Of a stretch of 55,804 nt of DNA, positions 41,764 through 43,348 are shown piece after piece (the stretch's first letter is position 1; each line of letters opens with the position of its first letter). Position numbers and translations under genes: made by a program. Below the pieces are notes generated by a model. The model did no database searches and had not been told where the DNA came from. It saw nothing but the letters and a program-made list of their open reading frames with translations. Location: the NCBI GenBank assembly GCA_012729635.1, contig JAAYCT010000002.1:1-55804 (forward strand), written 5' to 3'. Source of the DNA: Clostridiaceae bacterium (GTDB taxonomy: Bacteria > Bacillota > Clostridia > Saccharofermentanales > Saccharofermentanaceae).

Positions 41764-42162
41764 ATGAAAGTTCATCCTTTTGATTCTTATAACGGGGCCG
41801 AGTATCCTTCGATTAAAGACGTTTCCTCCGGCAAAAAGCCGGTCGGAAATCCCAAAGGCGCGGCGGCGTTGATTATGGCGTCACTGACCGTGCTTTCTCT
41901 CTCGTATTGTGATCCGGGTGCGAAAAAAGATAACGTGCAACTTGCGGGCGCACCGACGATTTCGGAAACGACGATAACGGATTTGTCGATCGAGTCGACC
42001 CGAACCGTGGGCATCGTACCGGAGGAGTGGACGGAAGGCACGACCGGGACATCGGAGGAGACCGAGGAAGTGATACTTGCGGGTGAGGTCGCGTATACCG
42101 AGACCGAAGCAATCTTCACGGAAGATATCGCGGAGCCCGGAGTGGTCATTCCCGAAAATTAA
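41764..42162 (+). CDS. Small acidic single-Cys protein, candidate radical SAM substrate
   Basis: A 132-residue protein lying 55 bp before the radical SAM gene. The ATG at 41764 has AGGAG eight bases upstream. The N-terminus (MKVHPFDSYNGAEYPSIKD) is hydrophilic and could be a recognition leader. Then come NPKGAAALIMASLTVLSLSY, a hydrophobic helix, and a single cysteine (C49) in a poor lipobox. The last 80 residues are rich in Thr, Glu, Ser and Ile with repeated short motifs (TEGTTGTSEETEE, TETEAIFTED). I do not recognise the family. The small size and the neighbour suggest a modified peptide or lipoprotein-like precursor. Confidence 0.65.
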   Translation: MKVHPFDSYNGAEYPSIKDVSSGKKPVGNPKGAAALIMASLTVLSLSYCDPGAKKDNVQLAGAPTISETTITDLSIESTRTVGIVPEEWTEGTTGTSEETEEVILAGEVAYTETEAIFTEDIAEPGVVIPEN

Positions 42163-42217
42163 TCTCCCGTAATACGAAAATCAATCATTTCCCCGATTCG
42201 GAAGGCGGAACGTTTGT

Positions 42218-43348
42218 ATGAATCTGACCCTTCATATCACCGACCGATGCAATATGCGCTGTGCGTATTGCGTTCATGACTATTCACCGAGGCAAATGAG
42301 TCTTGAGACGGCCTTTGCCGCAGTCGATCTTTCCGTGCGCTCACAGGGGAATTCGTTGATTCCTTCCGGATGTATGCACACCGGGCTTTGCTTCTATGGC
42401 GGAGAGCCGCTTTTAAACCGTGATTTAATCGAAAAAACCGTGGCGTATTGTGAGACACTTCGTGCCGAAAGGGGCGAGGTTTTTCATTATCTTATCGTGA
42501 CGAACGGAACCCTGATGGATGAGGCATTTCTAGCGTTCGCGGCGACGCATGACATCGGGATCGGACTTTCGCACGACGGGTTGATGCAGGAGGATTCCCG
42601 TCGGATGGAGGACGGAGCGTCCTCGTCCGGGCGTCTGGAAAAGACGATCGATTTACTTCTCCGATATTGCCCGCGTTCCACGGCGATGTGCACGATTCAT
42701 CCGCCCCTGGCCGACCGGCTCGCGGAGTCGGTCCGATGGCTTTTCGGGAAGGGCTTCCGGAAAATACAGACGGTTCCCGCGGTCGGAATCAAAGCGGATT
42801 GGACACCGGAGGCGCTTGAGACACTCGAAAAGCAGTATCGGCTCCTTTCCGATTTCTACGTCGAAAAGACACGGGCGGGTGACGATTTCGAGCTGACGCT
42901 TTTTGAGAGCAAAATCCGCTCGCACATCATGGACGGACGGGGGATCAATCAGACTTGCCGATTCGGCAAACGCCAGCTCTCGGTCGCTCCGGATGGCGTG
43001 ATTTATCCCTGCGTCCAGTTTCTGGATCTGCCGGAATACCGGATGGGCGATGTGTTCGACGGTCTGATTGCGAAAAATGTAGAGCATGTAGCCGAAAAGG
43101 GCAGCAAGGAGCCAATCGAGTGTCAGACCTGCGCGCTTCGGAAGCGGTGTAAGTACAATTGCTGCTGCATGAATCGGCTCACCACCGGGCATATCGATGA
43201 GATATCTCCGTTGACCTGTTCCTTTGAGCGACTGGCAATACGATACGCGGATCGTACCGCCAATATCCTGATGGCCGAAGAAAACGCGCGATTCATCCGA
43301 AAGCACTACGCGTCAGTTCTCGGAAAGGATCCGATGTTTTTTGAGTAA
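42218..43348 (+). CDS. Radical SAM/SPASM-domain peptide maturase
   Basis: A 376-residue enzyme. C11, C15 and C18 (CNMRCAYC) bind the SAM-cleaving iron-sulfur cluster, and LCFYGGEPLLNRDLI is the SAM-binding GGEP motif. The C-terminal SPASM domain has its cysteines in QTCRFGKRQ and GVIYPCVQF, then CQTCALRKRCKYNCCC, and a last one in LTCSFE. This can hold two more clusters. SPASM enzymes of this layout modify peptides or act as anaerobic sulfatase-maturating enzymes. The upstream small protein makes peptide modification more likely, though an AP-superfamily enzyme lies 3 kb away. No sulfatase CxPxR motif was noted there. Confidence 0.88.
   Translation: MNLTLHITDRCNMRCAYCVHDYSPRQMSLETAFAAVDLSVRSQGNSLIPSGCMHTGLCFYGGEPLLNRDLIEKTVAYCETLRAERGEVFHYLIVTNGTLMDEAFLAFAATHDIGIGLSHDGLMQEDSRRMEDGASSSGRLEKTIDLLLRYCPRSTAMCTIHPPLADRLAESVRWLFGKGFRKIQTVPAVGIKADWTPEALETLEKQYRLLSDFYVEKTRAGDDFELTLFESKIRSHIMDGRGINQTCRFGKRQLSVAPDGVIYPCVQFLDLPEYRMGDVFDGLIAKNVEHVAEKGSKEPIECQTCALRKRCKYNCCCMNRLTTGHIDEISPLTCSFERLAIRYADRTANILMAEENARFIRKHYASVLGKDPMFFE

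Follow-up and report, generated by a model that had tools for sequence, protein, structure and literature searches.

The window, that is, the whole stretch of 55,804 nucleotides analysed from the genome of a Clostridiaceae bacterium, encodes on its forward strand a lipoprotein-like protein of 132 aa followed by a radical SAM/SPASM enzyme of 376 aa, and the two probably form an enzyme-substrate pair in which a short N-terminal tag would be read in the cytosol and LAG-type motifs of the tail would be modified, before export through the Sec/lipoprotein route and anchoring. The pairing of the two genes is beyond chance. In a literature search that covered openly accessible papers, with most subscription ones outside its scope, no description of the enzyme/lipoprotein pair was found, and the pair is apparently undescribed.

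Gene organization and features of the radical SAM/SPASM enzyme

The candidate substrate gene (41764..42162, + strand) is an ORF with a ribosome binding site, since AGGAG lies immediately 5' of the ATG at 41764, and it ends with the stop at 42162. After 55 nt comes the enzyme gene (42218..43348, + strand), identified by PF04055 (E 8e-12), by its Cys pattern and by a match of 188 bits to the PapB model NF047865. Both genes are retained in orthologues that are 84% identical. The first-pass annotation had described a SPASM maturase following a 132-residue protein, and the ORFs as well as the complete SPASM signature agree with this; likewise, as it had stated, the neighbouring genes include no recognisable protease or ABC exporter. 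A promoter and terminator scan yielded nothing that clearly exceeds shuffled expectation.

Both hallmarks of the Radical SAM/SPASM proteins, the CX3CX2C motif and the SPASM Cys signature, are present in the window enzyme. The former is found at C11/C15/C18 (CNMRCAYC, starting at residue 11) and the latter is complete (C-X12-G-X4-C...CX2CX5CX3C...C), the SPASM region having eight Cys that are conserved; the set of Fe-S ligands is complete. The invariant Cys of the enzyme are C11, C15, C18, C247, C265, C302, C305, C311, C315, and C334. An additional Cys, located two residues past the sixth SPASM Cys (CX3CXC), occurs in 76/76 complete relatives. In CteB, Aux I has an open site that is occupied by a substrate Cys (PMC6231123); by analogy, the additional Cys might act as the ligand at this site in the window enzyme. 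Since the radical SAM motif already begins at residue 11, the enzyme has no N-terminal RRE domain.

The AlphaFold model of the enzyme (pLDDT 91) and its sequence both point to CteB (5WGG, 5WHY) as the closest solved structure (sequence E 6e-55; fold TM 0.78, nearest 5WHY), followed by the anaerobic sulfatase maturase. Nevertheless, none of the NCBIfam maturase families reaches its curated cut-off with this protein. The top match, PapB NF047865, scored 188.4 bits vs a cut-off of 340 in an alignment spanning residues 3-328 of 376, and the SCIFF maturase model TIGR03974 scored 118.8 bits (cut-off 425). Thus, the NCBIfam search proposed in the first-pass annotation left the enzyme without any SPASM maturase model above its cut-off and the small protein unmatched. 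Viperin-like PADLOC matches to the enzyme were confined to the radical SAM core. Sulfatase maturation, also raised at that stage in the form of an enzyme acting on a sulfatase Cys/Ser motif, was rejected: the corresponding model, TIGR03942, gave 77.7 bits vs a cut-off of 349, and the three PF00884 proteins of the genome contain no C/S-x-P-S-R.

The small protein consists of a tag, a putative signal segment and an acidic tail

The first 15 residues of the small protein, MKVHPFDSYNGAEYP (41764..41808, + strand), form a tag that aligns without gaps with 25 other leaders, those of the type B partners described below included, and residues 1-15 align in this way between the window protein and others with short tails or large domains. 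The tag fits the pattern M-K-[IV]-x-P-x-K-x-Y-x-x-[PA]-x-[YF]-[AP], except for D instead of K at position 7. Sequence reading and the leader alignment delimit, further downstream, a hydrophobic segment with a lipobox-like ending (...GAAALIMASLTVLSLSY-C49; 41857..41910, + strand). C49 is the sole Cys of the protein, it is preceded by the single hydrophobic stretch, and the Cys at its position is invariant in the leader alignment. Relatives mostly carry [TSA][GA]C after the hydrophobic stretch, and the window protein has SYC (LSYC), which is no strong consensus. From its sequence, the 132-aa protein looks like a lipoprotein, with lipidation as a prediction. The single helix and one cysteine reported earlier hold as one hydrophobic stretch and one Cys, and can now be refined to a putative lipoprotein-type signal segment and a lipobox-like Cys; being the latter, C49 is an unlikely site for the chemistry. 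No Pfam or NCBIfam family is matched by the protein, in line with the initial view of a precursor unlike known families.

The predicted mature tail (41911..42159, + strand) comprises 83 residues, is acidic, Cys-free and rich in Thr, Glu, and Ser, and the short repeats that had been noticed in it correspond to LAG/LDG-type motifs: VQLAGAPTI and VILAGEVAY, plus a looser TRTVGIVPE. The pattern [LIYV][ADEGSM]G[DEAGV] was observed 170 times in a non-redundant set of 80 type A tails, vs 24 +/- 5 in shuffles. It is carried by 73/80 type A proteins vs 2/23 ordinary lipoproteins of the same loci, and type B tails lack it in their first 80 residues. For this motif, initially spotted by visual inspection of a data set in which the held-out proteins were still present, a PSSM whose training left out the window clade recovered two matches in the window protein (VQLAGAPTI and VILAGEVAY; 0.14 expected, P=0.007) and matches in all nine held-out proteins (window plus eight others), vs one match in 25 control lipoproteins. 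The acidic tail diverges fast and the LAG-type motif persists. Tail Cys are not conserved, with 27/56 short tails being Cys-free.

Conservation of the pair and distribution of tagged lipoproteins

The enzyme was found by search in 77/115 genomes of the same taxonomic family, and its relatives include Ruminococcaceae AB4001 and KHP2, Hungatella hathewayi, and Anaeromassilibacillus senegalensis, as well as MAGs labelled Armatimonadota and Coriobacteriia. In most of the loci read, the upstream small protein shows M-K-I-x-P-x-K-x-Y-K-K-P-L-Y-A, a hydrophobic stretch, [TS]GC, and an acidic tail. Among enzyme relatives with at least 900 nt of upstream sequence, an ORF with tag and lipobox lies immediately upstream on the same strand in 71/74 loci, at a median gap of 4 nt and with many 4-nt overlaps. 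One to five differing lipoprotein copies occur in tandem per locus. In one locus (L047, 4827-5618) the order is reversed and a tagged type B lipoprotein follows the enzyme.

Co-occurrence across genomes was assessed with a tag profile of 33 positions (tag plus signal segment), built partly from enzyme-adjacent loci. In a sister genus (g4; 85 genomes), 47 genomes carry both enzyme and tag, three only the enzyme, one only the tag, and 34 neither (Fisher 4e-19, a statistic that ignores shared ancestry). The absence of the tag from enzyme-free genomes is not produced by choosing the profile from enzyme-adjacent loci. Taken with the locus counts, these numbers dispose of the possibility, raised in the first-pass annotation, that the small protein is not conserved beside the maturase. 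Its proposal of a substrate and maturase pair, possibly with a cell-surface product, is borne out as regards the conserved pairing and the lipoprotein-like build, and the modification itself is what we infer from them.

Two partner types were distinguished. In type A, the partner type of the window and of most Ruminococcaceae- and Saccharofermentans-like genomes, the tails are of low complexity, and in some cases a longer region comes after them. Type B, found in Hungatella, Anaeromassilibacillus and a second locus of the genome under study, carries a conserved domain starting with [VI]PxFxHGxGRGS[FY]GC. This domain (L111, 2207-2998, and relatives) contains invariant PxFxH..GxG..GC and LSE motifs and an invariant Cys, belongs to no Pfam family, and its AlphaFold model (pLDDT 75) had no significant PDB match. 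Since HGxGRGS[FY]GC takes the place of the LAG motif in type B, the target there may be another one, or the motif may play another role. In the enzyme tree, the window groups with type A loci in a clade of good support, two rows of the tree (L049 and L066) being labelled type A by default because of too little upstream sequence. The second locus just mentioned (L002, 1456-3551; G000 contig C39) encodes another copy of the enzyme, 40% identical, and upstream of it a type B lipoprotein that keeps the tag and has an HGEGRGSYGC domain and no LAG motif. Divergent partners were seen upstream of the enzyme in L086 and L099, with RTGGVPMPEPTPEE or LLGGVPLATESTPEP tails and a Phi-x-G-V-P variant of the motif.

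The tag is common to proteins with unrelated tails, and it also marks lipoproteins encoded away from the enzyme, some of them with folded domains. Indeed, out of the 99 matches of the tag profile at E < 1e-5, 70 precede an enzyme gene in the same orientation and 29 lie elsewhere. In the loci read, the enzyme-distant tagged proteins range from about 65 to 420 aa, and many of these matches are larger lipoproteins that keep the Phi-x-G motif after the Cys. No convincing Pfam family was found for nine of these distant lipoproteins. Two adjoining tagged lipoproteins away from the enzyme were observed in L147 (1162-2933) and L148 (1545-3433); one of them, of ~400 aa, has an HELTH zinc-peptidase-like motif and VQIEGE/VQIDGE after the Cys.

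Comparison with known systems

By their names, TIGR04133 (rSAM_w_lipo) and TIGR04134 (lipo_with_rSAM) likewise describe a radical SAM enzyme with a lipoprotein, and therefore such pairing is already a known kind. However, in this genome TIGR04133 matched only the ScfB gene (33 bits) and not the window enzyme, and TIGR04134 gave no match at E<=10. PapB is the best NCBIfam match, yet one that stays far below its cut-off, and PapB precursors contain Cys-X3-Asp motifs (PMC9413430), whereas the window protein has one lipobox Cys, a Cys-free tail and no Cys-X3-Asp/Glu. From CteB/ScfB, its nearest solved relative, the window enzyme differs in having no RRE domain and in the extra Cys of CX3CXC; moreover, the CteB/ScfB substrate is a Cys-rich SCIFF peptide, which the window partner is not. 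A separate ScfB/SCIFF-like system was located in the same genome (L003, 1-2655; G000 contig C32), where a maturase accompanies a short peptide rich in Cys, encoded near 988-1129, so that SCIFF chemistry is handled elsewhere in the genome. Another comparison is offered by the bufferins, in which Sec signal peptides replace the leader and ~16% of Buf2 have lipoprotein signals (PMC12452194), but there MNIO enzymes modify Cys motifs, whereas in the window pair the enzyme is of the radical SAM/SPASM kind and Cys is not conserved.

Proposed mechanism and alternative explanations

In the mechanism that we propose, the enzyme would recognise in the cytosol the tag M-K-[IV]-x-P-x-K-x-Y-x-x-[PA]-x-[YF] ahead of the lipoprotein signal segment, tag and signal segment together serving as the leader. 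It would then modify residues in the Phi-x-G-[D/E/A]-[V/T/A] repeats (consensus E-V-x-L-A-G-D-V-A-I) of the putatively unstructured region past the lipobox Cys. Export by Sec would follow, Lgt would lipidate the Cys, and signal peptidase II would cut before it, removing the tag at the same time, so that the modified tail would be shown on the cell surface. That Sec signals can serve as RiPP leaders, some being lipoprotein signals, is known from the bufferins (PMC12452194). The absence of an adjacent exporter and protease would be accounted for in this scheme, in which Sec and signal peptidase II, if used, suffice. The pairing, the conserved tag, the lipobox-like Cys, the repeated motif and the full Fe-S ligand set are seen in the sequences, and we infer the role of the lipoprotein as substrate, that of the motif as modified site, and the export route. 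The chemistry is most likely a carbon-centred change on the motif's aliphatic or aromatic residue or on neighbouring ones, rather than a Cys thioether. The same enzyme probably also acts on tagged lipoproteins whose genes lie at other places in the genome.

The constant position of the lipoprotein, directly upstream of the enzyme, would also suit a docking partner in the membrane with a chaperone-like role, comparable to that of PqqD for PqqE, which recruits the enzyme there for another target. An auxiliary role has been proposed for LPL proteins, which are small and encoded upstream of SPASM enzymes (PMC8939145), and the domain conserved among type B partners is probably folded. This explanation is nevertheless unlikely, as one to five differing tandem copies and distant copies on other domains favour substrates over a single helper, and a fast-varying acidic tail with a persistent motif also speaks against it. 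It is improbable, too, that the tag or signal region is itself modified, controlling export or signal-peptide cleavage, with the tail motifs serving another purpose such as binding of an extracellular partner: no other element is shared as clearly by type A and type B partners as the tag, but signal peptidase II would discard the tag, and the repeated tail motif occurs in tagged lipoproteins and is almost missing from their ordinary counterparts at these loci.

A ranthipeptide/sactipeptide-type thioether between Cys and the abundant Asp/Glu, as made by PapB, appears very improbable. Among characterised enzymes, PapB and ScfB/CteB come closest, the tails contain much Asp/Glu, and for type B the invariant Cys of the domain keeps the option. 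However, PapB links Cys and Asp in C-X3-D motifs (PMC9413430), absent here, and such a bond does not fit the window protein because its tail is Cys-free, as are nearly half of the short tails; lipidation, moreover, would require the lipobox Cys.

Implications for surface lipoproteins of Clostridia

The substrates of most known radical SAM RiPP maturases are small peptides, which are freed by a dedicated protease and exporter. In the enzyme-substrate pair favoured here, the leader is apparently fused to a lipoprotein signal peptide, and full-size lipoproteins are among the candidate substrates, possibly several per genome. The recurrence of the pair in many Clostridia suggests an undescribed chemical decoration of surface lipoproteins before export. 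More tentatively, and with somewhat less than even probability, it may represent a general surface-decoration system of Clostridia, in which one enzyme reads a 15-residue tag on lipoprotein signals and installs a new non-thioether modification on LAG-type repeats of many lipoproteins, near or far; the tag would then act as a transferable address that directs radical modification to exported proteins. Clostridia from the rumen, the gut and digesters commonly carry the system. Named strains are among the carriers, Ruminococcaceae AB4001 and KHP2 for type A and Hungatella hathewayi DSM 13479 for type B, which makes it testable. If true, radical SAM modification would extend from peptides to cell-surface proteins, a short portable targeting tag would become available, and a new chemistry on Cys-free motifs would be indicated.
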